A stretch of DNA of 64,000 nucleotides from Microbacterium pseudoresistens. GTDB lineage: Bacteria > Actinomycetota > Actinomycetes > Actinomycetales > Microbacteriaceae. Position numbers and translations under genes: made by a program. The notes under the pieces were generated by a model. It did no database searches. It was not told the DNA's origin and worked only from the letters and a program-made list of their open reading frames with translations. Location of the stretch: NCBI RefSeq assembly GCF_013409745.1, contig NZ_JACCBH010000001.1, forward strand, positions 310,001 through 374,000, read 5' to 3'. Shown in pieces: positions 17,030-34,470 of this stretch; the first letter of the stretch is position 1; the number at the start of each line of letters is the position of its first letter.

Positions 17030-17034
17030 GATCA

Positions 17035-17467: not shown

Positions 17468-17719
17468 ATGACCAGAGAACGTACCGCGACCGATTCATTC
17501 GCTGACATCAGAGAACTGTTCGAGAGCAAGCTCGACGGCAACCAAGAGCTGGGCGCGTCGATCGCGCTCGATATCGACGGCCAGCGGGTTTTCGGTTTCT
17601 GGCGCGGCTACCGCAATCCCGAGCGGATCAACCCCTGGACTCGCGACACCATCATGAACGCCTTCTCGACTACCAAGCTCGCCACTGCCCTGACAGTGCT
17701 CGCGCTCACCGACCGCTGA
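17468..17719 (+). pseudogene. Truncated beta-lactamase-like serine hydrolase (EstB family), N-terminal 83 residues
   Basis: ATG 17468 opens a frame whose content fits the first fifth of class C beta-lactamase-like esterases: ELGASIALDIDGQ, then GFWRGYRNPERINPWTRDTI, then the nucleophile motif STTK (SxxK). The family is normally ~380 residues; here a TGA follows ALTDR, and the sequence after it runs straight into the AraC gene. The catalytic Tyr and C-terminal parts are absent, so it should be inactive. Adjacent decay suggests an old deletion. Confidence 0.75.
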
Positions 17720-17728
17720 CAGCGCGCC

Positions 17729-18709
17729 GTGCGCCGCTTCGCGGCTACGCGAGAGGACTCATTCGAGGCCAGGCATGATCTGCCGCTCCCTCCGCCGCTC
17801 GGGGTCACGCTCTCCTACCCAGCGATCCAGATACCAGGTGACATCGCGGCCATCGAGATGGTGCGCACGATTCCGTCAAGCCGTACCGTTTTCCGGCATG
17901 TGAAGGTGATCAATGTCGTCGAGGGCTCTTGCGCCTTCGAGACCGCAGAGAGCATGCACATCCTGCGCCCGGGCATGTCGCTGGCACTCGGCACCGGCAA
18001 GTGGTGCCGAGTTTGGCCAGCACCCACAGCACGAATCTGGGCCATCTACGCCGACGAACAGTTCTGGCGCACACAGATGGCATGGTTTCTCCCCGATGCG
18101 GATCGAGTGCTCCGAGGAGTGCACCCCCTCGAGTGGGACGGTCGCGCGATTGTCCTTGCACCGGGCGTCGCCACACTGCAACAGGCCGAACCGCTATGGC
18201 GACAGATGAGCGTCATACGCAGCAAAGCCGAATCACCCGAAGTCGTCGCAACTCACACTCTCGAGCTTCTCGCACGATGGATGAGGCTGGTGCTGCCGAC
18301 CTTCTTGAATGCGGCGCCAGCCACTCCCCCAGCCCCGTGGACGCCCATTAGTGGACGACTGACCGACACTGGATCTATCGGCTACATCGGTCGGGCAATC
18401 CAGTTGCTCCGCAGGCGCATCGCAGAACCGTGGACTATTGCGGCACTCTCACGAGAACTCTCGCTTTCACGAACCCACCTCACCCGCTTGTTCGTACAGC
18501 ACGCCGGCGCCGCACCGATGCGCCTGCTCACTGAACTCCGGCTCACAGAGTTCACGCGGCTCATAGAAGAAACAGATCTTTCAGTGATGCGTGCCGCGAA
18601 CGATGTTGGATGGAACGATCCGCGCGTCGCGTCCCACTGGTTTCGTCGTCGCTACGGCACCACGCCCACGCAGTACCGGCGCACGCCACACACGGTTGCT
18701 GAGGATTGA
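17729..18709 (+). CDS. AraC-family transcriptional regulator
   Basis: 326 residues from GTG 17729, though the true start may be later because the first ~15 residues may be remnant of the preceding pseudogene. The N-terminal half is an AraC-type sensor domain (cupin-like). The C-terminal ~100 residues carry two helix-turn-helix units: IAALSRELSLSRTHLTRLF and VMRAANDVGWNDPRVASHWF, followed by YGTTPTQYRR. It may once have controlled the neighbouring serine hydrolase. Ligand unknown. Confidence 0.85.
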   Translation: MRRFAATREDSFEARHDLPLPPPLGVTLSYPAIQIPGDIAAIEMVRTIPSSRTVFRHVKVINVVEGSCAFETAESMHILRPGMSLALGTGKWCRVWPAPTARIWAIYADEQFWRTQMAWFLPDADRVLRGVHPLEWDGRAIVLAPGVATLQQAEPLWRQMSVIRSKAESPEVVATHTLELLARWMRLVLPTFLNAAPATPPAPWTPISGRLTDTGSIGYIGRAIQLLRRRIAEPWTIAALSRELSLSRTHLTRLFVQHAGAAPMRLLTELRLTEFTRLIEETDLSVMRAANDVGWNDPRVASHWFRRRYGTTPTQYRRTPHTVAED

Positions 18710-19283: not shown

Positions 19284-19332
19284 GGGGTCGCCGTCACACA
19301 CCTATTGGTCACCTCGTCCTAAGGAGTTGACC
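19284..19332 (+). promoter_or_regulatory. Element-specific motif GGGG-N9-CACACCT plus hairpin (copy 1)
   Basis: GGGG at 19284-19287, nine bases, then CACACCT at 19297-19303. Three bases later GGTCACCTC (19307-19315) and GAGTTGACC (19324-19332) form an 8-of-9-pair stem whose loop and right arm contain the AAGGAG ribosome site of the gene starting at 19335. Four further copies of this arrangement occur in the same operon. Confidence 0.6.
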
Positions 19333-19334
19333 TC

Positions 19335-20138
19335 ATGAGAGAGCCTTCATCTGAACCGCTTCCCGACTTCACCACCGGCGAAGGACTCCGCGTCCTGCTG
19401 GAGCAGCTCACCGCCGAGCATCTCTGGCGCACGCACCCCGCCGCCCGCGCGTTGATGCAGTATGCGCAGGAGAAGTACCTTCCGCTGGCACGGTCCTGGC
19501 ACCGTGACCCCGCCGATGCCGCGTATGAGGCGTTCATGGCGATGCGGACGCCAGCGATCCGCCGTGCCGCGGACCCGTGGGCCGCGATCACTCGCGCGGT
19601 GGAGCTTGGCATCGCCGCCGAGGTGCACGCCGAACGTCTCCTCACCTCAACCGACAAGGCCCGCAGGCCCGATCAGCGTCCCGACGAGTACCCGATGCGG
19701 GCCGGCCACTACGAGACGTTCTTTTACCACGTGCTCGCCGCCGCAACCCCGCCTGCCTCACCGACCGTGGCTGTGGAGAGGGTGGTGCGATCCGCGTCCG
19801 TGTTCCTGGTGACCACCGGCTGGTATCCCCGCACCATCGAGACCGCGGTGGAATACATCTGCCACCGCCTCACGACTCTGGCGAGCACCCAGTCCGGGAT
19901 CGACGTGCTCCGCAAAGACGACGCGATGCGGCAACGACTCGGGTTCTCCGCCCGCGACTGGAACGGGCTGCTGCGTTTGCTACTCGGGCCGCGGTCAAAG
20001 AAAGAGGTCACCGGCGCCGACCCCGCACGGCTGGGGATCTTCGCGCGGCTGCTGCTCGGCGACCGCACCGAAGACCTCCTCGCGGATCACCAACTCGCCG
20101 CCATCTCCCGCAAGTTCACGCGAGGGACCGCAGCATGA
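19335..20138 (+). CDS. Conserved conjugative-element protein of unknown function
   Basis: 267 residues, soluble, with no membrane segments. Composition is mostly helical, with ALMQYAQEKYLPLARSW near the N-terminus and a region DAMRQRLGFSARDWNGLLRLLL that could hold a helix-turn-helix, though I cannot show it. It is the first gene of the operon and its stop overlaps the parB-like start by ATGA. Position before ParB suggests a replication, partition or regulatory role, which is inference only. AAGGAG precedes the ATG. Confidence 0.65.
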   Translation: MREPSSEPLPDFTTGEGLRVLLEQLTAEHLWRTHPAARALMQYAQEKYLPLARSWHRDPADAAYEAFMAMRTPAIRRAADPWAAITRAVELGIAAEVHAERLLTSTDKARRPDQRPDEYPMRAGHYETFFYHVLAAATPPASPTVAVERVVRSASVFLVTTGWYPRTIETAVEYICHRLTTLASTQSGIDVLRKDDAMRQRLGFSARDWNGLLRLLLGPRSKKEVTGADPARLGIFARLLLGDRTEDLLADHQLAAISRKFTRGTAA

Positions 20139-21310
20139 ACACCACGGCGTCCGCGAGCGAGCAAACCGTAGCCCAGTTCCCCATCGAGAGCCTCGTCCTG
20201 GGTCGCTCCTACCGGCGTGAGCTCGGTGATCTGACCGACCTGACCACGTCGATCCAAACGCTCGGGTTGCTGTGCCCGATCGTGATCACCTCCGACGGGG
20301 TCCTCATCTCCGGCAGGCGCCGCCTGGAAGTGATGCGGCAGCTTGGGCACGCGACCGTCCCGGTGTGGATCGCTTCTGAGGTGTCGGACAAGCTGCGGAC
20401 GTTGCTGGCGATCCAGGACGACAACTTTCTGCACAAGCACTTCACCACCACGGAGAAGGCAGCCCTGTACGCGGAGTACAAGACGCTCCTCACCGAGGAG
20501 AACGCCCGCCGTCAGGCCGCGACCCGGTTCGGCGCCGCCGCCCTCCCGGACTCGGACGATGGCGAGGCCGATGACACCGACCCGGATGAACGAGAAGCGA
20601 TGATCGTCGCGACCTATCAGGGCAGCGGCAGCGGCCGTTGGGATTCACAACCGCCGTCGAAACGGAAGTCCCGTGTGCAGGCCGCGACCGCGGTGACCGG
20701 TCGGGACTCTTCCCAACAGCTCGAGCAGGTCCTCGCGCTGGAAAGGCTGGCAACCAACGAGGACGAAGACGAACGGGTCCGGCGAGCAGCAGCCGAAGCG
20801 GTCGTGGAGATCAACGGCGACGCGAAGGTCCACGGCCGTTACCACGAGGTCATCGCCCTGCGCGGGGTGTGCTGGCTGGAGAAGACCGCAGTGAACGAGA
20901 CCGCCACCGCCGCCGTCCGGGAAGCCGCCGACGACGAACTCCGCGCGGTGCGACAGATTGACCGGCCGGTAGAACGATCCCGGGCGGTCGCAGCCGCCAT
21001 CGCCCGCGTCCGCAAGCTCGCCCTCACCCCGACTTCCGCTGCGACAACCGCGGAGAGCGGCGAGTCGGGCGCCGAGGACGACGGGATGTCCGCTGACGGG
21101 GTACGGGGCCGCTACCACGCCCGCCGACTGGTCGACATTCTCGCAAAGGCCGAGGGGTGGTGGGAGATCAACGACGCCGCCCTCGTCGGCCAGTACGCCA
21201 CCGTCGAGCAATGGGACGCGATCACTCGCCACCGTGACCAGGCGAACGCGTTCCTCGACACCGCCGCCCACGCACGGGGCGCCACCAGCGGAGCGGGCGT
21301 CCTGCCGTGA
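20135..21310 (+). CDS. ParB/Srx N-terminal-domain protein
   Basis: 391 residues. Residues ~15-75 are a ParB N-terminal domain: an IESLVLGRSYRRE start, SIQTLGLLCPIVI, then GVLISGRRRLEVMRQLG, typical of the ParB/Spo0J nucleotide-binding fold. A helical middle region and acidic linkers follow, then RVRRAAAEAVVEIN-type helical segments. No ParA ATPase is adjacent, so it may act in element maintenance or gene regulation rather than as half of a partition pair. ATG 20135 overlaps the preceding stop. Confidence 0.8.
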   Translation: MNTTASASEQTVAQFPIESLVLGRSYRRELGDLTDLTTSIQTLGLLCPIVITSDGVLISGRRRLEVMRQLGHATVPVWIASEVSDKLRTLLAIQDDNFLHKHFTTTEKAALYAEYKTLLTEENARRQAATRFGAAALPDSDDGEADDTDPDEREAMIVATYQGSGSGRWDSQPPSKRKSRVQAATAVTGRDSSQQLEQVLALERLATNEDEDERVRRAAAEAVVEINGDAKVHGRYHEVIALRGVCWLEKTAVNETATAAVREAADDELRAVRQIDRPVERSRAVAAAIARVRKLALTPTSAATTAESGESGAEDDGMSADGVRGRYHARRLVDILAKAEGWWEINDAALVGQYATVEQWDAITRHRDQANAFLDTAAHARGATSGAGVLP

Positions 21311-21320
21311 AGTGACCGGT

Positions 21321-21392
21321 GGGGTCAGGCGTCCGCACCTGCATGGCACACACCGTTGACCGTTCTGCTGTGAAAGGACGTCCCCTGCCATG
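21321..21392 (+). promoter_or_regulatory. Element-specific motif GGGG-N9-CGCACCT plus inverted repeat (copy 2)
   Basis: GGGG at 21321-21324, nine bases, CGCACCT at 21334-21340. CATGGCA (21342-21348) is complementary to TGCCATG (21386-21392); the right arm contains the start codon of the next gene (ATG 21390) and the enclosed segment holds its AAAGGA ribosome site. Confidence 0.55.
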
Positions 21393-22079
21393 TCGACTGA
21401 TTTCCCCGATGCGGCCTCGCGTAAGCGGGGCCGCGCCCTGTTGATCGCCGGTATCTCCGGAACGGTCATCCTCCTCGTCCTGGTGGGACTGGGCGTGTAC
21501 GGGCTGATCGCCCGCCCACACGAGAACACCCCCACCCCTGCACCGACCACCTCCGAGCAGCGGCCAACGGCCCCGGCGCCGTCCGGACCGCCCGAGCTGA
21601 CGCCGCTGCCGCGGACGAACGACCCGATCCGGTACGCACGCGCCGTCGCCGAGGCCCTCTTCACCTGGGACACCGCCTCCGGGCTCAGGCCCGCCGACTA
21701 CGGGCAGGTGGTGCTCTCCGACGCAGACCCCACCGGAACCGAGACCCCCGGTCTCGCCTCGGACATCGCCGGCTACTACCCGGCGCCCGACGCCTGGCGC
21801 CAGCTCACTGGGCACGCCACCACCCAGCACCTCACCACCGAGACGGCGGTCATCCCCGACGCCTGGGCCGACGCTATCGCGCAAGACCGGTCCGGCACCC
21901 TCGTGGAAGGGATGATCGCGGTCACCATCGACGGCACCCGGCACCGCACCGGCACCGTCTCCGGGCAGGAAGCGACCAGCGAACACCCGGTGTCGTTCAC
22001 CGTGTTCCTCGCGTGCGAGCCCGCGTTCGAGTCGTGCCACACGCTGCGGCTGTCCGAGCTCGACAACCCGCTGCGCTGA
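21390..22079 (+). CDS. Single-pass membrane protein of the conjugation apparatus (VirB8-like position)
   Basis: 229 residues: a short cytoplasmic N-terminus, one membrane helix (~residues 18-40), a Pro/Thr-rich linker and an extracellular C-terminal domain. The topology matches actinobacterial conjugation proteins with an NTF2-like/VirB8 outer domain (e.g. DPIRYARAVAEALFTWDT), but sequence evidence for that fold is weak. AAAGGA lies upstream of ATG 21390. It precedes the wall hydrolase by 14 bp. Confidence 0.6.
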   Translation: MSTDFPDAASRKRGRALLIAGISGTVILLVLVGLGVYGLIARPHENTPTPAPTTSEQRPTAPAPSGPPELTPLPRTNDPIRYARAVAEALFTWDTASGLRPADYGQVVLSDADPTGTETPGLASDIAGYYPAPDAWRQLTGHATTQHLTTETAVIPDAWADAIAQDRSGTLVEGMIAVTIDGTRHRTGTVSGQEATSEHPVSFTVFLACEPAFESCHTLRLSELDNPLR

Positions 22080-22093
22080 GTCCGGGGTCTGTC

Positions 22094-23713
22094 GTGCTGA
22101 AGAAGATCCTTGCCGCGCTGGCGGTCGTCGTCCTGTGCGTGGGACCGGCGGCCGTGCTGGTCGGGGTCGGGGTGCTGATGAACCCCGCCGCGAACGCGAG
22201 CTGCGGTCCCGGGTCATCGCTGACCGTGGGGCCGATCCCTGACGAGCTGGAAGTGACCACGCGGGACGGGGAGACATTCACGCTGAACAAGAAGCAACTC
22301 ACTCACGCCGCCACGATCATCACCGTCGGCGGGCAGACCGACGGCGTCGATGCCCGCGGGGCCACGATCGCCCTCATGGCAGCGCTGACCGAATCGACAC
22401 TGCGGCAACTGGCGAACACCGGCACCTACCCGGAGTCGGGGAACTACCCCAACGACGGCAACGGGTCCGACCACGACTCGCTCGGCTTGTTCCAGATGCG
22501 CCCGCAGGCCGGGTGGGGAACCGTCGCCGAGCTGATGGACACCACCTACCAGGCCAGAGCGTTCTACGGAGGACCTTCGGGTCCGAACTATCCCTCCCCA
22601 CGGGGCATGCTGGACGTCCCGGGCTGGGAAACGATGGACATGGGCGAGGTCGCGCAGGCCGTCGAGGTCAGCGCGTTCCCAGAGCGGTATCAGAACTACC
22701 AGCCCGTCGCCGAAGCGATCCTCGATGCCCTCACCGTGCCCGCTCCCTCCAGCACTGGCGGCGGCACGGGGTCGGTGCCGGAGACCACCCGCATCATGTT
22801 CCCGCTGCCCGAGGGGACGTGGATGAAGACCAGCGACTGGGGATATCGGTCCGATCCCTTCACCGGGGAGACCACCTACCACGCCGGCACCGACTACGCC
22901 GCCGCCGACGGCACCCCGATCTACGCGGCAGCCGACGGTCGGGTCGTGTGGGCCGAGCTCAACGGAGGCTACGGCGGCCTCATCATCATCGAACACACCG
23001 TGCAGGGCGAAGCCGTCCGCTCCGTGTACGCGCATATGTGGGAACGCGGCATCCACGTGCAAGAAGGACAGACTGTCACCGCTGGCACCCACATCGGCGA
23101 CGTCGGCTCCTCGGGACGCTCCACCGGCGCAAACCTGCATTTCGAGATCCGGCCCGGCTCCACCGGCACCGAGTCGATCGACGCCGACCAGTGGCTCGCC
23201 GACCACGGCGCCACCGAACCCGACGGCACCAGCACCCCCGGGCCCGGCTGCGCACCTGACGGGGCCGGGGCGGACGCGGCGGAGTTCACCGGGGACGGCG
23301 GGAAGTTGGTCGATGACCCGACCGGCACCGGCGGGCAGGTCACCGCCCGCACCGCGCATATGGTCGTCCAGACCCGCAACGCGTTCCCCGGCACCGGGTG
23401 GGCATGTTACTCGCCACGTCCCGGGACACGGTCGGATTATCCGCTCGGGCGGGCCTGCGATGTCACCGTCGGCAATCAGATCGGTCATTACCCGAGCGCG
23501 GAGCAGGTCGACTACGGGTGGCGACTGACCGACTGGCTCGAGACGAACGCTGAGACCCTCGGGATCAGTTACCTCATTTGGCAAGGACAGATCTGGTCGA
23601 CTGCTCGCGCAGACGAGGGATGGCAGCCGTACGACGGCGGCGGGATGCACGACCCGGGGAACGTCACCGGAGGGTATTTCGACCACATCCACATCTCCGT
23701 GAAAGAAGGGTGA
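22094..23713 (+). CDS. Conjugation-associated peptidoglycan hydrolase with M23 domain
   Basis: 539 residues from GTG 22094, chosen to place the signal-anchor KKILAALAVVVLCVGPAAV at the N-terminus. Domain order: a transglycosylase-like region (~residues 60-190; AALTESTLRQLAN, SDHDSLGLFQMRP), an M23 peptidase domain (~240-370; YHAGTDYAAADGTPIYAA, VYAHMWERG, NLHFEIRPG) and a C-terminal domain (~420-539; LGRACDVTVG, DHIHISVKEG) seen in related actinobacterial wall proteins. It should open the cell wall locally for the secretion channel. Confidence 0.85.
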   Translation: MLKKILAALAVVVLCVGPAAVLVGVGVLMNPAANASCGPGSSLTVGPIPDELEVTTRDGETFTLNKKQLTHAATIITVGGQTDGVDARGATIALMAALTESTLRQLANTGTYPESGNYPNDGNGSDHDSLGLFQMRPQAGWGTVAELMDTTYQARAFYGGPSGPNYPSPRGMLDVPGWETMDMGEVAQAVEVSAFPERYQNYQPVAEAILDALTVPAPSSTGGGTGSVPETTRIMFPLPEGTWMKTSDWGYRSDPFTGETTYHAGTDYAAADGTPIYAAADGRVVWAELNGGYGGLIIIEHTVQGEAVRSVYAHMWERGIHVQEGQTVTAGTHIGDVGSSGRSTGANLHFEIRPGSTGTESIDADQWLADHGATEPDGTSTPGPGCAPDGAGADAAEFTGDGGKLVDDPTGTGGQVTARTAHMVVQTRNAFPGTGWACYSPRPGTRSDYPLGRACDVTVGNQIGHYPSAEQVDYGWRLTDWLETNAETLGISYLIWQGQIWSTARADEGWQPYDGGGMHDPGNVTGGYFDHIHISVKEG

Positions 23714-23720
23714 CCCGCCG

Positions 23721-24035
23721 ATGACGTTTTCCTTGTCCCGGCTGCAACCGGCCGGATTCCTGGTCTCGGGGAACGTGTTCCCCGACTTCGGCGCCGTGGG
23801 CGGCTCCAACGAGCTGGAGAGCATCATCGGCGCGCTGTTGACGATCGTGCTGATCCTGTCGGTGTTGATGATCGTGGTGAGCGCGGTGATCTGGGCGATC
23901 GGCTCCACGAACGGGCACCACCAGGTCGCCACGAAAGCACGCATCGGCGTGTGGACGGCGCTCGGCGCGGCAGCTCTCGCCGGGGCCGGGATCGCGTGGA
24001 TGAACTGGCTGATCGCTCTCGGCGGGCAACTCTAG
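23721..24035 (+). CDS. Small two-helix membrane protein, pilin-like position (DUF6112-like)
   Basis: 104 residues with two long hydrophobic helices (~38-62 and 78-98). Size, topology and location before VirB6-like and SCO6880 genes match the small integral membrane proteins of actinobacterial type IV secretion clusters, possibly playing the VirB2/TrbC role. It resembles the protein at 24183-24515 in layout. Start ATG 23721 lies 7 bp after the previous stop. Confidence 0.65.
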   Translation: MTFSLSRLQPAGFLVSGNVFPDFGAVGGSNELESIIGALLTIVLILSVLMIVVSAVIWAIGSTNGHHQVATKARIGVWTALGAAALAGAGIAWMNWLIALGGQL

Positions 24036-24055
24036 CCCGGACGCGAAGAACCGGC

Positions 24056-24156
24056 GGGGGCGGTGGAGGCGACGGGGCTCCACCGCCCCCGCTTCCTGCG
24101 CCGTGGGGTGCAGGAAGCGCACCTATGCGATACCCGGCCGATGCCGGCCGGGTATC
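24056..24156 (+). promoter_or_regulatory. Three consecutive hairpins with motif GGGG-N9-CGCACCT (copy 3)
   Basis: Stem 1: GGGGGCGGTGGAG (24056-24068) with CTCCACCGCCCCC (24078-24090), 13 bp. Stem 2: GCTTCCTGC (24091-24099) with GCAGGAAGC (24110-24118). Its loop carries the motif GGGG (24105-24108), with CGCACCT at 24118-24124. Stem 3: GATACCCGGCC (24129-24139) with GGCCGGGTATC (24146-24156). All lie between two small membrane-protein genes. Stem 1 could be a terminator or processing barrier. Confidence 0.7.
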
Positions 24157-24182
24157 CCCGCTTGGTTCATGAAGGAGCACCC

Positions 24183-24515
24183 GTGTCCGCCGTTCTCGAT
24201 CTCACCACCACCGTCCTGCCTCACCTGGCCGCACTCGTCCCGATGCAGGTCGATATCGACCCCAACAGTTCCGGGCTGCCCGGTATCGCCCAGCTGCGCA
24301 CCATCGTCGGCGCCGTGATGACGGTCGGCCTGATCCTCAGCGTCCTGGCGTTGATCATCTCGGCAATCATCTGGGGCTTCGGCGCGAACAGCAGCAACCC
24401 GCATCTGGCCGGGCGGGGAAAGATCGGAGTCCTCGTCTCCTGCGGCGCCGCGATCATCTGCGGCGCAAGCGTCACCCTCATCAACTTCTTCTGGAACGTC
24501 GGCCAGGCCGTCTGA
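24183..24515 (+). CDS. Small two-helix membrane protein (DUF6112-like)
   Basis: 110 residues from GTG 24183, chosen for the AAGGAG 6 bases upstream. Two hydrophobic helices (~42-65 and 82-105) flank a short basic loop. It resembles the preceding small membrane protein and families annotated DUF6112 beside SCO6880-type genes. A pilin-like or channel accessory role is inferred. Its expression may be uncoupled from the upstream gene by three hairpins. Confidence 0.7.
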   Translation: MSAVLDLTTTVLPHLAALVPMQVDIDPNSSGLPGIAQLRTIVGAVMTVGLILSVLALIISAIIWGFGANSSNPHLAGRGKIGVLVSCGAAIICGASVTLINFFWNVGQAV

Positions 24516-24554
24516 ACGGCCCCTCCACCGCACCGCCCCGGAAGGAGACCCGTC

Positions 24555-26027
24555 ATGGCACTGTGCGACGTCCCGGTCATCTCGAACGTCTGCGACGCCG
24601 TCGGAGAAGGGGCCGCGACGCTCGTCGCGGCCCCTTTCGACTGGCTCGCCCAAGCAATGGGACAAGCCGCCGCCTGGCTGTTCGAGGGCGTCTGGTATGT
24701 CTTCGACACCACCACGCTCGTCGACGTCCAGTCCCCGGAGTACCTCGGCGTCTATAACATCCTTTTCGGCGTCGCCGTGCTGATCATGCTCGTGTTCTTC
24801 TGCCTGCAACTGATCACCGGCCTCATCCGCCGAGACCCCACCGCCCTCTCTCGGGCGGCGCTCGGACTCGGCAAGAGCGTGCTCGGGTCGTTCCTCATCA
24901 TCACGCTCACCGCGACGCTGCTGGAGATCACCGACCAGTTGGCCATCGGCATCATCCAAGCCACTGGCAATTCGATGGAAGCGATGGGCGACAAGATCGC
25001 CCTGCTCGCCGCGGGGCTCACCGCGATCAACCTCACCGCCCCCGGTGTCGGCGCGATCATCACCATCTTCTTCGCCGGCCTCGCGATCACCGCCGCGGCG
25101 ATCGTGTGGTTCTCGCTCCTGATCCGCAAAGCGTTGCTGCTCGTCGCGATCGTGCTCGGGCCGATCGCGATCAGCGGCGCGAGCTGGGACGTCACCCGCG
25201 GCTGGTTCGGGAAATGGGTGTCGTTCGTGATCGCCCTGATCCTGTCCAAGCTCGTCCTCGTCGTGGTGTTCCTCGTCGCGATCACCCAGGTCTCCCAGCC
25301 AATCGACTTTGACCTGGCATCCATCGCCGACCCCATTGCGGGGATCGTGCTCATGTTCGTCGCCGCGTTCGCGCCGTACATGGTCTACAAGTTCATCTCC
25401 TTCATTGGGTTTGACATGTATCACGCGATGAGCGCGGAGCAAGAGGCCAAGCAATCCATGAATCGACCCGTGCCCACTCCGTCCAAGCCCGCTGGCGACG
25501 GCCCGCAGAAAGTCCTCGACGGGAAAGGTCAAGGCGACGGACCACCGCCCGGCAGCGGGGGTGGTGGAGGCGGAGGCACGCCGCCCCCACCTCCGGACGG
25601 CGGGAGCGGCGCGACCGCTGCTGGTACCGGTGGAGGCGGAGGCGGCGCTGCGGCTGGTGGCGGGGGCGGCGCTGCCGGTGGTGCTGCCGGTGGTGGCGGG
25701 GCTGCTGCAGGTGGCGGGGCTGCTGCGGGAGGTGCGGCAGCGGCCGGACCCGCCGCAGTCGCGGTCGTCGCGGCGGCGGCCGTCAAGGAAGCCGCCACGG
25801 CCGGCCCCAAGCTCGGCGGCGCGATCGGCGGTGCTGCAGAGGACCAGGCATCAGCGGCCGGCCAAGATAGCGCCCCACCTCCGTCCGGTAACGCACCCCC
25901 GCCGTCAGCCCCATCGGCGCCGCAGGAGCCGCCGTCCAGCACACCGCCGGCATCGTCTGGCCCGTCGTCGACGCCACCGCCGAAGGACCCGCCGCCACCG
26001 AACACGGCGCCCGAAGGGAAGGAGTAA
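24555..26027 (+). CDS. VirB6/TrbL-like polytopic conjugation channel protein
   Basis: 490 residues. The first ~290 hold six or more membrane helices in a TrbL/VirB6-like pattern, including LLIRKALLLVAIVLGPIAI. The last ~190 are low complexity: Gly/Ala runs then Pro/Ser-rich sequence, presumably disordered. GGAAGGAG precedes ATG 24555. The protein is expected in the cytoplasmic membrane as part of the DNA-transfer channel. The next gene's ribosome site lies inside this gene's 3' end. Confidence 0.8.
   Translation: MALCDVPVISNVCDAVGEGAATLVAAPFDWLAQAMGQAAAWLFEGVWYVFDTTTLVDVQSPEYLGVYNILFGVAVLIMLVFFCLQLITGLIRRDPTALSRAALGLGKSVLGSFLIITLTATLLEITDQLAIGIIQATGNSMEAMGDKIALLAAGLTAINLTAPGVGAIITIFFAGLAITAAAIVWFSLLIRKALLLVAIVLGPIAISGASWDVTRGWFGKWVSFVIALILSKLVLVVVFLVAITQVSQPIDFDLASIADPIAGIVLMFVAAFAPYMVYKFISFIGFDMYHAMSAEQEAKQSMNRPVPTPSKPAGDGPQKVLDGKGQGDGPPPGSGGGGGGGTPPPPPDGGSGATAAGTGGGGGGAAAGGGGGAAGGAAGGGGAAAGGGAAAGGAAAAGPAAVAVVAAAAVKEAATAGPKLGGAIGGAAEDQASAAGQDSAPPPSGNAPPPSAPSAPQEPPSSTPPASSGPSSTPPPKDPPPPNTAPEGKE
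25550..25745 (+). repeat. GGC/GCT-rich imperfect tandem repeats coding a Gly/Ala tail
   Basis: Repeated GGTGGCGGGGCTGCTGC-like units encode alternating Gly and Ala runs in the C-terminal tail of the VirB6-like protein. Repeat number is likely variable between strains through slippage. Confidence 0.75.
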
Positions 26028-26030
26028 CCC

Positions 26031-27500
26031 GTGGCGAAACCGCAGAACACGAAAGACGACTACCCGCTGACGGCGGTGAAGTTCTCCCGCCTCACCCGGC
26101 GTGGCCTCATCCTCGGCTTGTCGCTATCGCAGGTGATCGCGCTCGCGATCGCCGGGCTGGCGTTCATCGGGTCGCTGTACGCGGGAGGCGGGATGATCCT
26201 CGCCTATACCGCCCCGATCTGGGTCACCTGCCTGGGCATCACCTGGGCCCCGATCGCAGGCCGCAAGACCGTCGAGTGGCTGCCCGTCGGGGTGCACTGG
26301 CTGTGGCGGGTCACCGTGAAGCAGACGATCTACCGGATGCGGGTCGTCAAGCCCCGCCCCGCCGGGACCCTCGCGCTCCCGGGGGATATGGCAGCGCTGC
26401 GTCAGTACGAAGACCCGATCACCGGAGCGGTCATGGTGCATCACCCCTACGCGGCCACGCTGACAGCGCTGCTGGAAGTCACCCATCCCGCGTTCGTGCT
26501 CCTGGACCCTGGCGAGCAGGAACGCCGCGTGGCCAGTTGGGGGCGAGTCCTCGCGACATGCTGCCGGTCCGGGCGCATCGCCCGCCTACAGGTGCTGGAG
26601 CGCACCCTCCCGGATTCAGGGAGCGGGCTGGCGCAGTGGTGGGCCGAGCACGGCAACTCTGACGACGAGTCGTGGACGTCGCGCACCTACGCCGAGCTCA
26701 TCAACCGGGCAGGCCCTGCCGGGGAACGCCACGCGACGACGATCTCCCTCGCCCTGGACATGAAGGCCGCTGCCCGGGCGATCCGCACCGCCGGCGGCGG
26801 CATGAAAGGTGCGGCCGCCGTGCTGCGACAGGAGATGAACACCCTCACCGCCGCGCTCCACTCCGCCGAGCTGAAAGCCATCGGATGGCTCACACCCGGC
26901 CAGCTCGCCGTGATCCTACGCTCCGCGTACGACCCGGCGATCGCCGCGACCCTGGAACGCTCCGGGAACCTCGGGCAGGACCTGGCCACGGCAGGACCGG
27001 TTGCGTTGGAGGAGACCTGGAACGGGCTCCGCTCCGACAGCGCACACCATGCCGTGCTCTGGGTCAGCGAATGGCCCCGATCGCTCGTGTACCCGGGGTT
27101 CCTGTCCCCGGTGCTCCTCGCCTCCGGGGTGCGGAGATCGTTCTCGTTACTGTGCACGCCGATCCGGTCGGATCAAGCGGCCCGTGACATTCGGAAGAAG
27201 AAGGTCGAGTACATCTCCGACGCCGCACAACGCCAGAAGATCGGACAGGTCGAGGACGCCCAACAGTCCGCCGAGTATCAGGACGTGCTGCAGCAAGAAG
27301 CCGACCTCACCAGCGGGCACGGCATCCTCCGCTACACCGGGCTGATCTCTGTCAGCGCCCCCACCCCGGACGAGCTGGAAGCGGCGGTCTCAAAGATCGA
27401 GCAGGCCGCCATCCAAGCCTCCTGCGAGACCCGGCGGCTGGTCGGTCAGCAAGCCCAGGCGTTCACCGCGGCCGCACTGCCGCTCGCACGCACCGTCTGA
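26031..27500 (+). CDS. SCO6880-family conjugation protein
   Basis: 489 residues from GTG 26031 with GGGAAGGAG upstream. Two N-terminal membrane helices (~33-75) precede a large soluble domain ending in an Arg/Ala-rich helix. It matches the SCO6880 family found beside VirB4 in actinobacterial conjugative elements, thought to take part in the type IV secretion channel, perhaps acting as the N-terminal membrane part of a split VirB3/VirB4 system. No Walker motif is present; the ATPase is the next gene. Confidence 0.8.
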   Translation: MAKPQNTKDDYPLTAVKFSRLTRRGLILGLSLSQVIALAIAGLAFIGSLYAGGGMILAYTAPIWVTCLGITWAPIAGRKTVEWLPVGVHWLWRVTVKQTIYRMRVVKPRPAGTLALPGDMAALRQYEDPITGAVMVHHPYAATLTALLEVTHPAFVLLDPGEQERRVASWGRVLATCCRSGRIARLQVLERTLPDSGSGLAQWWAEHGNSDDESWTSRTYAELINRAGPAGERHATTISLALDMKAAARAIRTAGGGMKGAAAVLRQEMNTLTAALHSAELKAIGWLTPGQLAVILRSAYDPAIAATLERSGNLGQDLATAGPVALEETWNGLRSDSAHHAVLWVSEWPRSLVYPGFLSPVLLASGVRRSFSLLCTPIRSDQAARDIRKKKVEYISDAAQRQKIGQVEDAQQSAEYQDVLQQEADLTSGHGILRYTGLISVSAPTPDELEAAVSKIEQAAIQASCETRRLVGQQAQAFTAAALPLARTV

Positions 27501-27504
27501 CCCT

Positions 27505-27565
27505 GGGGCGCCGGTCCCGCACCTCCTTCCTGCACACCGCCTGCCCGGGCGGGTGCAGGAAGGAG
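27505..27565 (+). promoter_or_regulatory. Element-specific motif GGGG-N9-CGCACCT plus long hairpin sequestering a ribosome site (copy 4)
   Basis: GGGG at 27505-27508, nine bases, CGCACCT at 27518-27524. CTCCTTCCTGCAC (27523-27535) pairs perfectly with GTGCAGGAAGGAG (27553-27565), extended inward by CCGCC/GGCGG. The right arm contains AGGAAGGAG, the ribosome site of the virB4-like gene starting at GTG 27573. Transcript folding would hide it. Confidence 0.7.
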
Positions 27566-27572
27566 TCGTGCT

Positions 27573-29063
27573 GTGAGCATCCCGAAACCTCGCGTGTACT
27601 CGACCGTGCTGATCGGACCGGAATCCGAGCACCGCAAGCAGCGCCGAGCCCGCCGGAAGGCCGCCGCGCAGATCCAAGCGAAGGACGTCGCCGCCCGCAA
27701 GGCCGAAGCCCGCGCCCAGTGGGAGGCGGAGCAGGCCGAGCGCCGCGCCACCACCTACCTCCCCCGATCTGGTGAGTCAGGTCCCGCCGCGCTGCGCTCG
27801 CACCGAGGGCTGCGGCTTCCCTCCCATCAGGACACCAGCGCCGCGCTCGCCGGTGCGTATCCGTTCCTCGCCGAAGGTGGCCTCGGGCCGGAAGGCGTGT
27901 TCGTCGGACAAGATATGTACTCGGGCGGGTCGTTCGTGTATGACCCGTGGGAGCTGTACAAGCGTGGCGTCATCACCGCCCCGAATCTGGTCTTGGCCGG
28001 GATCGTCGGCTCCGGGAAGTCTTCCCTCGCCAAGAGCCTCTACACGCGGTCGATTCCGTTCGGACGTCGCGTGTACGTGCCGGGTGACCCGAAGGGCGAG
28101 CACACGCCCGTCGCTGAGGCGGTCGGCGGGAAGGCGATCGTCCTCGGTCATGGGCTGCGTACGCGGCTGAACCCGCTCGACGAGGGCCACCGGCCCTCGG
28201 GTCTGACCGATGTCGAGTGGGCGTCGCAGATCGCCTCACGGCGGCGCGAACTCATCGGCGCTCTCGCCGAGACCGTCCTCGAGCGGTCCCTGTCGCCGTT
28301 GGAGCACACCGCGATCGACGTCGCCCTCGCCGCCGTCGTCGCCGGCAACGATGTCCCGATTCTGCCTATGGTCGTCGACCGCATCCTCACCCCGGACCGT
28401 GGGGGTGATACGGACAGTCGTCTCGCGGAGGACGGCCGGCTCGTCGGTCATGCGCTGAGGCGGCTCGTGGCCGGCGACCTCCAGGGACTGTTCGATGGGC
28501 CGTCCACGGTCGTGTTCGACCCGACGCTGCCGATGATCTCCCTGGATCTGTCACGGGTGGCGGAGAACTCGACTTTGATCTCGGTGCTGATGACGTGCTC
28601 GTCGGCGTGGATGGAGTCCGCGCTGCTGGACCCGGCCGGCGGGCAGCGGTGGGTGATCTACGACGAGGCGTGGAGGCTCATGTCCCATCCGGCTCTGCTG
28701 AAGCGGATGGACGCGCAGTGGCGGCTCGCGAGGCATTTCGGCATCGCCAACATGTTGATCTTCCACAAGCTGAGCGACCTCGACAACGTCGGCGACTCCG
28801 GGTCCGCGATGCGCGCCCTCGCTTCCTCGCTGCTGGCGAACGCGGAGACCCGGATCATCTACCGGCAGGAAGCCGACCAGCTCGGCGCGACGGCGACCGC
28901 GCTCGGCCTCACCGGCACTGAACAGTCCCTTCTGCCGGGTCTGGGCACCGGGCAGGGCTTGTGGCGGATTAAGGAGCGGTCTTTCGCCGTCCAGCACCAG
29001 ATGCACCCGGACGAGTTGTCCACGTTCGACACGACCACGCGGATGATTGGGCGGCAAAAATGA
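27573..29063 (+). CDS. VirB4/TraC-like conjugation ATPase
   Basis: 496 residues from GTG 27573. A basic, helical N-terminus (~18-60) precedes a P-loop ATPase: Walker A GIVGSGKS at 143-150 and Walker B WVIYDEAW at 360-367. Further VirB4 features are YVPGDPKGEH after Walker A, and RIIYRQEADQLG and GLGTGQGLWRI near the C-terminus. It powers assembly or substrate transport by the type IV channel. Its stop overlaps the next start by ATGA. Confidence 0.92.
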   Translation: MSIPKPRVYSTVLIGPESEHRKQRRARRKAAAQIQAKDVAARKAEARAQWEAEQAERRATTYLPRSGESGPAALRSHRGLRLPSHQDTSAALAGAYPFLAEGGLGPEGVFVGQDMYSGGSFVYDPWELYKRGVITAPNLVLAGIVGSGKSSLAKSLYTRSIPFGRRVYVPGDPKGEHTPVAEAVGGKAIVLGHGLRTRLNPLDEGHRPSGLTDVEWASQIASRRRELIGALAETVLERSLSPLEHTAIDVALAAVVAGNDVPILPMVVDRILTPDRGGDTDSRLAEDGRLVGHALRRLVAGDLQGLFDGPSTVVFDPTLPMISLDLSRVAENSTLISVLMTCSSAWMESALLDPAGGQRWVIYDEAWRLMSHPALLKRMDAQWRLARHFGIANMLIFHKLSDLDNVGDSGSAMRALASSLLANAETRIIYRQEADQLGATATALGLTGTEQSLLPGLGTGQGLWRIKERSFAVQHQMHPDELSTFDTTTRMIGRQK

Positions 29064-29608
29064 GCGAACATGCACCCTCACGCCGCTCCCGCCGTAACCA
29101 CGCCGCGACGGGCGAATCCGGCCGGGATCTCGTGGTGCCTATTGTACTCCCGCACCTGGTCGTCCGGGTAGACGCGAACGATCGGATCAGCGTCGACCTC
29201 GACGGTGGGGCGGTCACCGGGGAGCCGGTTGGCAGGCACGCCCTCGGCGGTCTGATCGACGAGATCCTGCGTCGGCGGAAGGTGCCGGTGCGGGTGGAGA
29301 TCATCGAGCACGACGGCACCACCTACACGGACGTGCTCACCCCGCCGGCCCCAGAATCCGATCCTGCGCCGACCGCGACGGCCGAGCCCGCGGCGGCGCG
29401 GGAGCTGCCGCTGCTGTACGAGGCGACCGGGGACGGTTTCGTGCCTGGGGAGGACGTCGCCCTCGCCGTGATCCTCCGTCATTCCTCCTCTGATGGTGAC
29501 GGTCATGTGCGGCACATGATCGAGGATCGTGAGCTGCCCGAAGGCGGCGAGGTGGTGCTGTTCGGCCGGATCTCCGGCACGACTCACGTCGTCAGGGGCA
29601 TGGGATGA
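29060..29608 (+). CDS. Conjugative-element protein of unknown function
   Basis: 182 residues, no membrane segment. A basic N-terminus (SRRSRRNHA) precedes two compact regions separated by a Pro/Ala/Glu linker (~95-110). The first, LVVPIVLPHLVVRVDANDRISVDLDGG, and the last, DVALAVILRHSSSDGDG followed by GGEVVLFGRISGT, look beta-rich. It lies between the VirB4 and VirD4 genes with ATGA overlaps on both sides, so it likely assists coupling between them. No family recognised. Confidence 0.65.
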   Translation: MSEHAPSRRSRRNHAATGESGRDLVVPIVLPHLVVRVDANDRISVDLDGGAVTGEPVGRHALGGLIDEILRRRKVPVRVEIIEHDGTTYTDVLTPPAPESDPAPTATAEPAAARELPLLYEATGDGFVPGEDVALAVILRHSSSDGDGHVRHMIEDRELPEGGEVVLFGRISGTTHVVRGMG

Positions 29609-31356
29609 ACCCGCACCAGCCTTCCCAGGTGCTCGCGAACCTGGGGCTTGCGGCATTGGCTGGTTTCGCGATTCTCGCCGGGCTGCTCCGTGCCGCCGGT
29701 AGTGCCGCCGCGTTGCTCACCGGGCATCCGCAACCCACCGGTGGGCCTTCCGCCGGGCTCGGCGTGCTGCTCGCCCCGGCCGACCCGGGGCAGGCCCTCG
29801 GTGCTCCGGGGCTGAACCCGGTCGTCTACTGGCTGGTCCTCGCCCTCGCTCTCGCGATCCTCGGAGCTGTCGCGTGGTGGGTGTGGCGGATCGTCGCCCG
29901 TGCGAAAGAGACCCGAGCGCAGGACCCACGGCTGCTCCGGGGCACCGCTACGCCGCGTGATGTCGCCAAGGCCGCCGGAGCGAAGGCCCTCGCGAAACGA
30001 GCGGGCACGTTCCGCCCTTCGTTGGAAGACCCGTCTCCGGAGGACGTCGGTTACCTCCTCGGCCGGTCGAAAGGGCAACAGGTGTGGGCGACGGTCGAAG
30101 ATTCGATTCTGCTGATCGGCCCTCCCCGCTCCGGCAAGGGGCTGCATGTGGTGATCAATGCGATCCTCGACGCCCCCGGTGCCGTCATCACCACCTCCAC
30201 CCGGCCGGACAATCTCACCGCGACGCTGAAGGCACGTCAACGCGTCGGACCCGTCGCGGTGTTCGATCCGCAGCGCCTCGCCGACGGGCTTCCCGCGGGG
30301 ATGAAGTGGTCTCCGGTGCGGGGATGCGAAGACCCTCTGACGGCGATGATCCGGGCCACTGGACTTGCGACGGCTACGAACTTCGGGTCCGTGTCCGGCG
30401 GTGACTTCTGGCAGGGGAAGACCGCGGCCGCCATCCAAGGGCTCCTCCATGCTGCGGCGCTGGATGGACGGGACGCGGCGACGCTGTATCAGTGGGCGTT
30501 GAACCCGACTGCTGCAGCGGATGCGGTACGGGTCCTGCAGTCCCACCCGCAGGCGGCGCCCGGCTGGGCGGACTCGCTCGACGCGATGCTGCAAGCAGAC
30601 CCCAAGACGCGCGACTCGATCTGGCAGGGCGTCTCCCTCGCGTTCAGCGCATTCGCCGATCCGCGGGTGCTGGCGGCGGTGACACCGGGTCCGCGGGACC
30701 GGTTCGACCCGGAGACGTTCATCCGGTCTCGCGGCACTCTCTATCTCCTCGCCACCGGTGCCGGCGCGGGGGCATCTTCGGCGTTGGTGGCGGCATTCAT
30801 CGAGGACCTGGTGGAGACCGCCCGGAAGATCGCCGCGACCTCTGCCGGTACGCGGTTGGACCCGCCGATGCTTCTCGCCCTCGACGAGATCGGCAACCTC
30901 GCGCCGTTGCCGTCCTTGCCCACGCTCATGGCGGAAGGCGGCGGCACGGGCATCACCACTCTGCCGGTGCTGCAATCGCTCGCCCAGGCGCGGGAGAAGT
31001 GGGGGGAGAACAACGCCAACGCGCTGTGGGACGCGTCGATCGTGAAGGTCATCCTCGGCGGCGCGTCGAACTCGCGAGACTTGCAGGACCTCTCGGCGCT
31101 GATCGGAGAGCGAGACGAGATCACCGACTCGGTCACCATCGGCGAGCAAGGACACCGGTCCGCGCAACGTTCGATCCGGCGGGTCGCGATCATGCCCCCG
31201 GACGTGATCCGCACCCTGCCGTTCGGGATCGGGGTGGTGATGCTCCGCACCGCCCGGCCCATCATTACTGATCTGCGCGCCTGGCCGACACGCAAAGATG
31301 CTGCTCAACTGAGCCACGACCGGAAGGAGATCGAGAAGCTCCTGCGCCGATCCTGA
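29605..31356 (+). CDS. VirD4/TraG-type coupling protein
   Basis: 583 residues. Two N-terminal membrane helices (~10-35 and 72-97) precede a cytoplasmic ATPase domain with Walker A GPPRSGKG at 172-179 and Walker B LLALDEIGN around 425. The segment ITTSTRPDNLTAT after Walker A and TTLPVLQSLAQ are typical of TraG/VirD4 proteins. It recruits the DNA substrate to the type IV channel. No relaxase partner is seen nearby. A GGGG-N9-CGCACCT site and hairpin follow. Confidence 0.93.
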   Translation: MNPHQPSQVLANLGLAALAGFAILAGLLRAAGSAAALLTGHPQPTGGPSAGLGVLLAPADPGQALGAPGLNPVVYWLVLALALAILGAVAWWVWRIVARAKETRAQDPRLLRGTATPRDVAKAAGAKALAKRAGTFRPSLEDPSPEDVGYLLGRSKGQQVWATVEDSILLIGPPRSGKGLHVVINAILDAPGAVITTSTRPDNLTATLKARQRVGPVAVFDPQRLADGLPAGMKWSPVRGCEDPLTAMIRATGLATATNFGSVSGGDFWQGKTAAAIQGLLHAAALDGRDAATLYQWALNPTAAADAVRVLQSHPQAAPGWADSLDAMLQADPKTRDSIWQGVSLAFSAFADPRVLAAVTPGPRDRFDPETFIRSRGTLYLLATGAGAGASSALVAAFIEDLVETARKIAATSAGTRLDPPMLLALDEIGNLAPLPSLPTLMAEGGGTGITTLPVLQSLAQAREKWGENNANALWDASIVKVILGGASNSRDLQDLSALIGERDEITDSVTIGEQGHRSAQRSIRRVAIMPPDVIRTLPFGIGVVMLRTARPIITDLRAWPTRKDAAQLSHDRKEIEKLLRRS

Positions 31357-31359
31357 CTC

Positions 31360-31433
31360 GGCGCGGGCTCGCGCCTGGGGTCTGGACCACGCACCTGTCT
31401 GGTGTCTCCGCTGTACCGCGGGACACCAGACAG
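31360..31433 (+). promoter_or_regulatory. Element-specific motif GGGG-N9-CGCACCT plus hairpins (copy 5)
   Basis: A 6-bp stem GGCGCG/CGCGCC (31360-31375, loop GGCT) leads directly into GGGG (31377-31380), nine bases, and CGCACCT (31390-31396). CTGTCTGGTGTC (31395-31406) then pairs perfectly with GACACCAGACAG (31422-31433). The ssb-like gene begins 32 bp later with its own AGGAAGGA outside the stem. Confidence 0.7.
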
Positions 31434-31464: not shown

Positions 31465-31962
31465 ATGGCGATCAAGACCTCGCAGGCGATCAACGGCTTC
31501 ATCTCCGCCGACCCCCGCCTCACCTTCTCCGAATCCGGGCAGGCACGCTTCTACGCGCGCGTCGGCATCAACCACTACGAGCCCCAGCAGGACGGGTCGT
31601 TTCGCAAGCTCGACCCGACCTATCACGACCTGATCCAGTTCGGGAAGTCCGCCGAGATGTCGGCAGACCGGTACGTCAAGGGCGACGACATCGTCGCTCA
31701 GGGCTACACCCGCGAGTACACCCGCGACGTCAACGGCGAGGAGCGCACCGACGAGCAGTTCGTCGCCAAGCGCATCGCTCCCGATCCGAACATCACCGAC
31801 TTCACGATCGACCGGCGGCCCGCCGCCGAGCGTCAGGTGGAACGCGAAGCGGAACGTGAGGTCGAGCGTGAGGAGCCCGACCGAGCAGCACAGCTCGGCT
31901 CGCCCACTCCGACCGCGTCGCGGGAGACGGAAGCACCCGCGATGGAAGCCGTCGGCCGGTAA
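31465..31962 (+). CDS. ssb: Single-stranded DNA-binding protein
   Basis: 165 residues from ATG 31465, preceded by AGGAAGGA. The N-terminal ~110 residues are an OB-fold SSB domain (INGFISADPRLTFSESGQ, FYARVGINHY, DLIQFGKSAE, GDDIVAQGY). The C-terminus is charged and disordered (REAEREVEREEP) and lacks the usual acidic DDDIPF-type tip, so it may not recruit the host proteins that bind that tip. In this context it probably coats transferred single strands. Confidence 0.85.
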   Translation: MAIKTSQAINGFISADPRLTFSESGQARFYARVGINHYEPQQDGSFRKLDPTYHDLIQFGKSAEMSADRYVKGDDIVAQGYTREYTRDVNGEERTDEQFVAKRIAPDPNITDFTIDRRPAAERQVEREAEREVEREEPDRAAQLGSPTPTASRETEAPAMEAVGR

Positions 31963-32955: not shown

Positions 32956-34242
32956 TCACACCTTCCTCGTCGCGTTGATCTGTTCCGCGACACGATCGCT
33001 CATGCGATCGGCGAGCTCGCGATCGCGGGCCATCGTGGCGTGCTGGTAGCGGAGGACGACTCGGATGTCGGCGTGTCCGCCGCGGCGCATCAGCTCTGCG
33101 AGCGTGGCGCCTTCCTGGGCGAAGATCGTCAGGCCCGTGTGACGGAGGTCGTGGAAGCGGAATCGCGGCCGGAGATCCGCGACACCGTCTCGAGCATCCG
33201 CCCAGACGTATCCCCAGCGCGTGTTCGACAGCGGGACGCTGCCGCGGATGTTCGTCGGGATCAGTGGCGCCTTGGCTTCGGTCGCCACGTTGTCCCGCAA
33301 GTGGTCTCTGAGCCGGTCGATCATGAGCTTCGGGATGCTGAGCGTCCGCCTTCCCGCGTCGCTCTTCAACCGCTCCGAGTAGTCGCCGGTGTTCGCGTTC
33401 AGTTGCCGGCGCACATGCAGGGTCGCGGTAGCGTCGTCGTGCCACTCGATGTCCCTGCGCTGCAGCCCCAGGCACTCTCCGCGGCGCAGCTGGCACCATG
33501 CGGCGAAGAGCACCATGATCGCCCAGCGATCCGGCGTCGCCGCATACAGGGCCTCGACCTGTTCCGGGCTCGCGACATCTTCGTCCTCGTCGTGGTCGGC
33601 ATCGTGCCGCACAGCCTCCTGCTTCGGGATCGAGATGTTCGGCGCAGCCGGGATGATCCCCTCGCGGGCTGCCTGACGCAAGATCATCATGAGCACGATC
33701 AGCACCGGTCGCGTGATGCCGTTGAACTTCGACTTCGGATTCAACGGCGAGGGGATCGCGTCGAGGCGATCGGTCATCTCTCGGATGCGCGCCTCGTCGA
33801 TCTGCCGTACCGGTGTGTCTTCGAACTCCGGGACGAGGTAGCCGTCGACCTTGCTCTTGTAGGAGCGCACAGTGGCGATGGCGCGTTTCCTCCCGCTGCG
33901 GTTCGGCTGCGTGCGGATCAAGGCAACCCACCGTTCCGCGTACTCGGAGAATCCGATGGATCGCGCCTTCTCCGCTTCCGCGACCACACGGCGGCGAGCG
34001 GCGACCACCGAAGGCGGCTCCCACTGCTGACGGGCGATCTTCGTGTGGACGCTGGCGAGCCACGCACGCGCGTCGGTCTTCGTGAGGAACGTCAGCGGCT
34101 TGTCGTCCTCCGTCCGGGCGGTGTACATCTCACCGTCGGGTGCGGGGTAGCGGGCCTGCCACCGGCCGGAGGGGAGCTTGCGAAGGCTCCCCCAGCTCTC
34201 ACGCCTGACTGCTGCTATCTCCCGGGTCTTGGTGGCGCTCAT
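32956..34242 (-). CDS. int: Tyrosine-family site-specific integrase
   Basis: 428 residues. An N-terminal arm-binding region (~20-75; LPSGRWQARYPAPDG) and a SAM-like core-binding domain (~95-200) precede the catalytic domain. Catalytic residues are visible as R253 (LRRGE), H364-x-x-R367 (HDLRH), H390 (GGH) and the nucleophile Y399 (LRYQH). It integrates and excises the element. Upstream lie paired repeats that look like its arm sites. The catalytic set is complete, so it is probably functional. Confidence 0.95.
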   Translation of the reverse strand: MSATKTREIAAVRRESWGSLRKLPSGRWQARYPAPDGEMYTARTEDDKPLTFLTKTDARAWLASVHTKIARQQWEPPSVVAARRRVVAEAEKARSIGFSEYAERWVALIRTQPNRSGRKRAIATVRSYKSKVDGYLVPEFEDTPVRQIDEARIREMTDRLDAIPSPLNPKSKFNGITRPVLIVLMMILRQAAREGIIPAAPNISIPKQEAVRHDADHDEDEDVASPEQVEALYAATPDRWAIMVLFAAWCQLRRGECLGLQRRDIEWHDDATATLHVRRQLNANTGDYSERLKSDAGRRTLSIPKLMIDRLRDHLRDNVATEAKAPLIPTNIRGSVPLSNTRWGYVWADARDGVADLRPRFRFHDLRHTGLTIFAQEGATLAELMRRGGHADIRVVLRYQHATMARDRELADRMSDRVAEQINATRKV

Positions 34243-34282: not shown

Positions 34283-34470
34283 CGTGCCACTCCGTGCCAC
34301 AAAAGGCCAGGAATCCCCAAAACTGGCTTCCCACCTGGCTTTTCTTGTCGCACTTGACATGCCCTATGGCACGCTGTGGCACGAGGTCGGTGGCACGCCA
34401 GGACCGAATTTCGGCCGACGGACCACCCCGCTCTCTCCTGGAAGGTGCGGGCGTGCCACCCGCGTGCCAC
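34283..34470. repeat. Seven copies of CGTGCCAC/GTGGCACG upstream of int: candidate arm-type integrase sites
   Basis: Direct copies CGTGCCAC start at 34283, 34293, 34452 and 34463. Inverted copies GTGGCACG start at 34376 and 34390, and a one-mismatch copy ATGGCACG at 34366. Three clusters with 10-14 bp internal spacing, near one helical turn, fit cooperative protein binding next to an attachment site. The attachment core should lie nearby, between here and the nrd terminator, but I cannot place it. Confidence 0.7.

Follow-up and report, generated by a model that had tools for sequence, protein, structure and literature searches.

The window analyzed here, i.e., the whole 64-kb stretch of Microbacterium pseudoresistens DNA under study, contains the transfer operon of a conjugative element, in whose gaps a short bipartite motif, GGGG-N9-C(G/A)CACCT, recurs. 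All the results presented derive from computation on sequence. An earlier note on this DNA had claimed five copies of the motif, strictly spaced and intergenic, and this description was reproduced throughout: the copies lie at 19284, 21321, 24105, 27505 and 31377, all on the forward strand, exactly nine bases separate the two blocks in 5/5 of them, and all five are placed outside the called genes, each directed at the next gene. Scanning both strands of the window yielded no sixth match, and shuffled versions of it contained the pattern 0.18 times on average and twice at most, none of 100 shuffles giving five. The motif is very probably a promoter. Its copies and the genes of the operon are listed below, the +1 of each copy having been deduced from the offset of leaderless genes in the whole element family.

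19284..19311, forward strand: probable promoter 1, from the GGGG block to the putative +1 A at 19311, upstream of orfA
19335..20138, forward strand: orfA (267 amino acids), candidate element-encoded sigma-like factor, no Pfam or NCBIfam family
20135..21310, forward strand: ParB_N-domain gene (below the Pfam cut-off), overlapping orfA
21321..21348, forward strand: probable promoter 2, putative +1 A at 21348, upstream of the gene at the VirB8 position
21390..22079, forward strand: gene at the VirB8 position
22094..23713, forward strand: M23 peptidase gene
23721..24035, forward strand: DUF6112 gene, first copy
24105..24132, forward strand: probable promoter 3, putative +1 A at 24132, upstream of the second DUF6112 gene
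24183..24515, forward strand: DUF6112 gene, second copy
24555..26027, forward strand: TrbL/VirB6-like gene (below the Pfam cut-off)
26031..27500, forward strand: EccE-like domain gene
27505..27532, forward strand: probable promoter 4, putative +1 G at 27532, upstream of the VirB4-like gene, lowest score of the five (7.2)
27573..29063, forward strand: VirB4-like ATPase gene, so named in the earlier note, with only a sub-threshold AAA_10 match
29605..31356, forward strand: TraG/VirD4 coupling protein gene
31377..31404, forward strand: probable promoter 5, putative +1 G at 31404, upstream of ssb
31465..31962, forward strand: ssb (just below the Pfam cut-off)

The label "VirB8-like" previously attached to the product of 21390..22079 could not be kept, no Pfam family being found above the cut-off, and we refer to the gene by its position. 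Chromosome-wide, the pattern matched 16 times as compared to 4 for the reversed pattern. One of the 11 matches outside the window belongs to the same element (chromosome position 299873, upstream of IrrE/ArdC-like and DUF2637 genes) and constitutes a sixth copy, while the remaining ten were judged by eye to be background from the open frames running over them.

Conservation of the motif and a putative transcription start

Genome contigs scanned with the VirB4-like protein provided 484 relatives, the best 80 loci of which were retained, and the gene order of the operon was mostly preserved among them. The exact pattern GGGG-N9-CRCACCT was matched ten times in the 80 loci; three of these matches fall in Leucobacter sp. 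Ag1, the nearest relative (VirB4 94% identical), and the remaining 79 loci account for seven. It was too strict, and the core motif was used instead. Homologous elements devoid of the motif, which the earlier note had named as evidence against it, were found only as regards the exact GGGG-N9 form, the core being retained; the exact spacing likewise stands within the window and fails as a family rule, with GGGG at that place in 20/336 family sites. The window copies are local forms of a motif, GG-N8-G[CT]GCACCT, that is preserved in a large family of conjugative elements of actinobacteria, where it lies in gaps and faces the next gene.

An iterated weight matrix detected 336 forward and 47 reverse intergenic sites, sites inside called genes and duplicates being excluded; since the matrix was seeded with YRYACCT, the invariant ACCT partly reflects how the search was set up, although variation was allowed in later rounds. 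Taking the Y of YGCACCT as motif position 0, the 281 unique sites carried G at position -11 in 92% and at -1 in 80% of cases, a pyrimidine at position 13 in 90% and a purine at 14 in 97%, so the family-wide constant is the G at -11 and not GGGG-N9. Intergenic YRCACCT was similarly oriented (325 forward, 61 reverse), while the control patterns TCCACRY (39/25) and YRCACGT (35/37) were close to even. The core CGCACCTGACTGGGGGTC was also seen by eye within an apparent tRNA gene (L083 399, L087 4846 and L056 4817, all reverse strand), which would account for several of the reverse-strand matches.

The motif is associated with particular genes. Within 120 bases upstream of the start, and with 0-5 loci per gene omitted, YRYACCT preceded ssb in 52/54 loci (reverse 0), the second DUF6112 gene in 54/60 (reverse 1), the VirB8-position gene in 41/49 (reverse 2) and orfA in 26/37 (reverse 0), while it preceded the operon-internal M23 and TrbL genes in 2/48 (reverse 1) and 1/57 (reverse 3), respectively. 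The VirB4 gene was preceded by it in 12/80 loci; an in-house gene-calling script shifted or missed some starts, which may account for some of the loci without an upstream motif. Four records labelled as Acidobacteria, Trueperaceae and Stenotrophomonas (L053, L063, L103 and L123) carry the element at about 80% VirB4 identity and are perhaps mis-binned or contaminated.

The distance from motif to start codon was evaluated with a matrix rebuilt ignoring the positions after 6. An ATG followed by a frame of at least 80 codons occurred at offset 14 in 22/359 unique sites, with at most four at each of the other offsets between 0 and 22; further peaks at offsets 27 (21 sites) and 44 (17 sites) were taken for fixed-length leaders in related genes. 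The same matrix gave 327 forward sites, with a pyrimidine at position 13 in 85% and a purine at 14 in 91% of them, and this step is present in 5/5 window sites. According to a hand tally, 9 of the 22 ATGs at offset 14 stand before the VirB8-position gene, leaderless in some lineages and provided with a ribosome site further downstream in others, and 11 before a gene between VirB4 and VirD4; in the element of the window, the TrwC relaxase is encoded on the opposite strand, and its gene begins with GTG at the same offset. From the start codons at offset 14 and the pyrimidine/purine step we infer, as the simplest reading, that transcription starts at position 14 and that some of the mRNAs are leaderless.

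Relative to this start, YGCACCT occupies positions -14 to -8, with a conserved A at -11, and GG(G) positions -25 to -23. In sigma-70 promoters the A at -11 is the base flipped out by sigma region 2. Between motif positions -45 and -13 no position exceeded 0.07 bit, hence no -35 box is visible.

Among the other features of the element, a possible further site, weak and without a pyrimidine at position 13, lies on the reverse strand:

34435..34463, reverse strand: possible further site, antisense, upstream of the integrase gene (32956-34242, reverse strand)

An inverted repeat (34389-34460) is found there with a promoter-like site at 34449 (reverse strand), 207 bases upstream of the integrase start, and the same distance was obtained for L047 and L090. 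The tandem pair of DUF6112 genes (23721-24515) recurs in many relatives, and the term DUF6112 was not found in the literature searched, which covered few subscription journals and is thus weak evidence. In the left part of the element (L129 7408-9914 and 12791-13675; chromosome about 291-298 kb) are located an ABC-three-component Middle Component 2 gene, a gene with a sub-threshold AAA_23 match and a gene of DprA-like type (DNA_processg_A); together they may represent defence cargo.

OrfA as candidate reader of the probable promoter

The best candidate for reading the promoter is OrfA, for which structure prediction suggests a sigma-region-2-like N-terminal domain joined to a C-terminal domain without family assignment; sigma factors top the PDB matches listed for the predicted N-terminal fold. 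The protein belongs to a family of at least 1708 homologues, with one record matched in a search of plasmids and none among the phages searched. We favor OrfA as the reader with some reserve. RNA polymerase carrying such an element-encoded factor would recognize the -25 GGG / -11 A promoter, and OrfA, whose own gene has the promoter, would give rise to positive feedback, while the relaxase, the secretion genes, ssb and the IrrE/ArdC-like gene would form one regulon. A binding site for an element-encoded regulator, as the earlier note had suggested, is the best fitting of its three proposals, in that the motif behaves like a promoter and its reader is likely encoded by the element. For processive antitermination, another of the three, no indication was seen, though no test was aimed at it.

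OrfA was found in 29/199 genomes of the family, 27 of them with a strong match (E below 1e-50), and a hand tally placed 26 of these 27 among the 32 genomes with a close VirB4. The six genomes with a close VirB4 and no strong OrfA comprise one retaining an OrfA fragment (G096), three with VirB4 near a contig end (G147, G018 and G027), one that lost the left half of the element (G079) and one with stop codons in VirB4 (G019). The decayed copy of G079 (L142 1-12500) lacks everything up to TrbL, adjoins an ATPase-like gene and has two intergenic sites left. Strong OrfA matches occurred in 4/396 genomes sharing the phylum level or nearer (G360, G444, G454 and G564, all classed as same phylum), and there too the sites lie in gaps of this kind. 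Another locus, L146 (G186), encodes OrfA without a detected VirB4 homologue and contains five intergenic sites, one before orfA; TraI-like helicase stretches were also seen by eye in this locus (8474-18456), possibly a mobilizable element with the same switch.

The density of intergenic sites scoring above 9 was 17.5 per 10 kb in the family (366 sites in 208.6 kb, training loci included). It was 1.3 per 10 kb (8 sites in 61.9 kb) in 14 control loci whose VirB4 is only distantly related, 2/14 of which come from genomes with OrfA elsewhere, and the host DNA adjoining the element of the window had one site in 3.2 kb. Six OrfA regions outside the training set contained 19 sites in 20.7 kb (9.2 per 10 kb), with G at motif -11 in 19/19 and the pyrimidine/purine step in 17/19. 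Of 85 places matching the leaderless pattern, counted by hand and regardless of genes, 26 fell in the 27 genomes that have a strong OrfA match and 59 in the other 172. Counts of the promoter-like pattern over the 199 whole genomes were high everywhere and did not discriminate.

The promoter could instead be read by an alternative sigma factor of the host, or by the host polymerase helped by an activator that the element encodes and that binds the G run, OrfA acting as this activator or in some other role. Several results speak for this and weigh on an element-encoded sigma-like reader. None of 29 OrfA members matched the Sigma70_r2 or Sigma70_r4 models, and the alignment of OrfA by hhalign to a trimmed and widened sigma alignment covered the expected stretch without reaching significance, so that OrfA is called sigma-like and not a member of the sigma-70 family. 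Weak matches to a TetR C-terminal model were found in 5/29 members (best E 0.018), and the genome of the window has seven Sigma70_r2 matches of its own, OrfA not being among them at E <= 1. A clear region 4 was likewise not found in OrfA. Tryptophan W82 was considered as the tryptophan of region 2.3 and rejected, the alignment placing it two columns off. Against reading by the host, the motif is preserved in elements from a wide range of host genera and in genomes that share no more than the phylum, it accompanies OrfA in L146 where VirB4 was not found, and it seldom occurs in other conjugative loci from this bacterial family. Moreover, its -10-like part is unlike TANNNT, the -10 consensus. 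We consider this explanation unlikely.

Inverted repeats across the putative start

The stems that the earlier note had described 0-4 bases after CACCT were seen in the five window copies and in the sixth, with z-scores of -2.5, -0.9, -3.3, -5.3, -3.7 and -1.3 for copies 1 to 6, those of copies 2 and 6 being weak. With this placement they span the putative transcription start:

19307..19332, forward strand: stem of copy 1, covering AAGGAG of orfA in read-through RNA, 4/5 outer 5' bases upstream of 19311
21342..21392, forward strand: stem of copy 2, pairing with the ATG of the next gene in read-through RNA, 6/7 5' bases upstream of 21348
24129..24156, forward strand: hairpin of copy 3 (12 bp), 9 bp left in RNA from 24132, ribosome site outside
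27523..27565, forward strand: hairpin of copy 4, 5' CCTTCCT wholly upstream of +1, pairing with AGGAAGG at the ribosome site of the VirB4-like gene
31395..31433, forward strand: inverted repeat of copy 5 (12 bp), 9/12 bases of the 5' arm upstream of +1, ribosome site outside

Since much of the 5' arm is upstream of the putative start, the full stem would form only in RNA that reads through from upstream. There the arm could mask the ribosome site of the following gene; transcripts begun at the promoter would lack most of this arm. Predicted RNA from +1 has its ribosome site open in copy 4, whereas in copy 1 a weak fold (-4.7 kcal/mol, z 0.2) still touches AGG and ATG, and in copy 2 the ATG is free and a small hairpin still occupies AGGAC of the ribosome site. 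Predicted hiding of the ribosome site solely in read-through RNA is clear in copy 4, partial in copies 1 and 2 and not seen in copies 3 and 5.

Over related sites this was evaluated by exchanging the upstream part with that of another promoter, after removing sites at least 70% identical to a retained one (174/252 left; likewise for the tests of cognate pairing) and leaders too short or too long (165/174 left). The probability of the ribosome site being unpaired was 0.361 in the native context and 0.414 with another promoter's upstream part (P 6e-7, n = 165), and it reached 0.482 in RNA from +1. The limits of this effect detract from a silencing role: it is modest over related sites, is absent after VirB4 (0.43/0.43) and between VirB4 and VirD4 (0.49/0.46), and does not appear at the ssb copy of the window (native/swapped 0.43/0.42). 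A first stem count had shown no clear excess over controls, with 15% for forward YRCACCT as compared to 8-16% for the remaining patterns and strands. RNAalifold, run on each gene class, found little consensus in the output listed, and the signal emerged only in the cognate and swap tests. We regard the chances that silencing of read-through RNA is a selected function as evenly balanced.

The stems could also belong to a structured RNA leader, as the earlier note had proposed, in which CRCACCU and the hairpin are bound by a regulator or pair with the ribosome site and control translation of the transfer genes. They do come after the motif, the AGGTG in the orfA ribosome site is a possible pairing partner of CACCT, and cognate pairing exceeds chance. 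Of that proposal the stems themselves hold, being real in a subset of sites, but their 5' arm is largely upstream of the start; start codons lie exactly at position 14 in leaderless genes, many sites have no stem, cognate pairing is scarce in the G-run segment (12% in the best 5%, median rank 0.44), and no Rfam family was matched at the gathering threshold within the window, which makes this explanation very unlikely. Least likely of all is an operator for a repressor or activator of the element near ordinary promoters, for which the two conserved blocks about one helical turn apart and the strong orientation bias may be cited, since the motif is not palindromic, no further conserved block occurs within 45 bases upstream and the distance to leaderless start codons is fixed.

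On balance, the motif is likely to be a promoter starting transcription at position 14, read by an element-encoded factor, for which OrfA is the best candidate, and associated with stems that may silence read-through RNA. A broader formulation would make OrfA the founder of a new family of sigma factors encoded by mobile elements, in which a region-2-like domain is joined to a novel DNA-reading domain that replaces region 4. Such a factor would read the -25 GGG / -11 A promoter, devoid of a -35 box, and drive the entire transfer regulon of a conjugative element widespread in actinobacteria, from promoters that double as the 5' arms of silencing hairpins. This formulation is tentative, and we lean slightly away from it.

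Comparison with known systems

Sigma factors on mobile elements are already known (SigN of pBS32, gp55 of T4, a Clostridioides difficile transposon module); the form of the promoter and the link of a sigma-like factor to transfer would be new if true. No report of an element-encoded sigma factor driving conjugation genes was found in the literature searched, weak evidence given the few subscription journals covered, and in the accessible part of the review "Regulation of Gram-Positive Conjugation" the term sigma factor appears twice, for a host factor and in the reference list (PMC6540685). A promoter code readable from sequence would predict start sites and regulons for hundreds of elements, the 484 relatives included, and would assign a role to an unnamed protein family, and OrfA would make it possible to study how promoters are located by a factor that lacks an obvious region 4.

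Sigma-54 promoters, defined by -24 GG / -12 GC, agree with the motif in the GG-N10-GC spacing and in the 12 bases from GC to the start, which is putative here. The conserved CCT after GCA is to our knowledge not a sigma-54 feature, and the sigma-54 domain (PF04552) was found in 0/15 host genomes vs. 4/14 control genomes. Extracytoplasmic function (ECF), or group 4, sigma-70 factors resemble OrfA in the predicted N-terminal fold and in a profile alignment that falls in the expected stretch and is not significant; unlike them, OrfA has neither a profile match nor a clear region 4, and the motif has no -35 element.

As for mobile elements, SigN (ZpdN) of the Bacillus subtilis plasmid pBS32 is described as a sigma factor that activates its own expression; it causes cell death after DNA damage (PMC6751061). 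According to a survey of mobile elements in C. difficile, Tn6073, Tn6107 and Tn6110 carry a predicted sigma factor, which is presented as belonging to accessory modules with a possible benefit for adaptation and not as driving transfer genes (PMC12291638). In phage T4, late transcription depends on late promoters and on gp55 as sigma factor, and hairpins are described for genes e, soc, 49 and I-TevI; in e and I-TevI the late promoter lies within the 5' part of the hairpin (PMC3014915), the same promoter-in-hairpin arrangement as in the stems of the element. The T4 late element is TATAAATA, to which the conjugative element adds the G run at -25 to -23, and gp55 acts with gp33 and ongoing replication. 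Between the two systems no sequence relation was found, and the setting here is a conjugative element.
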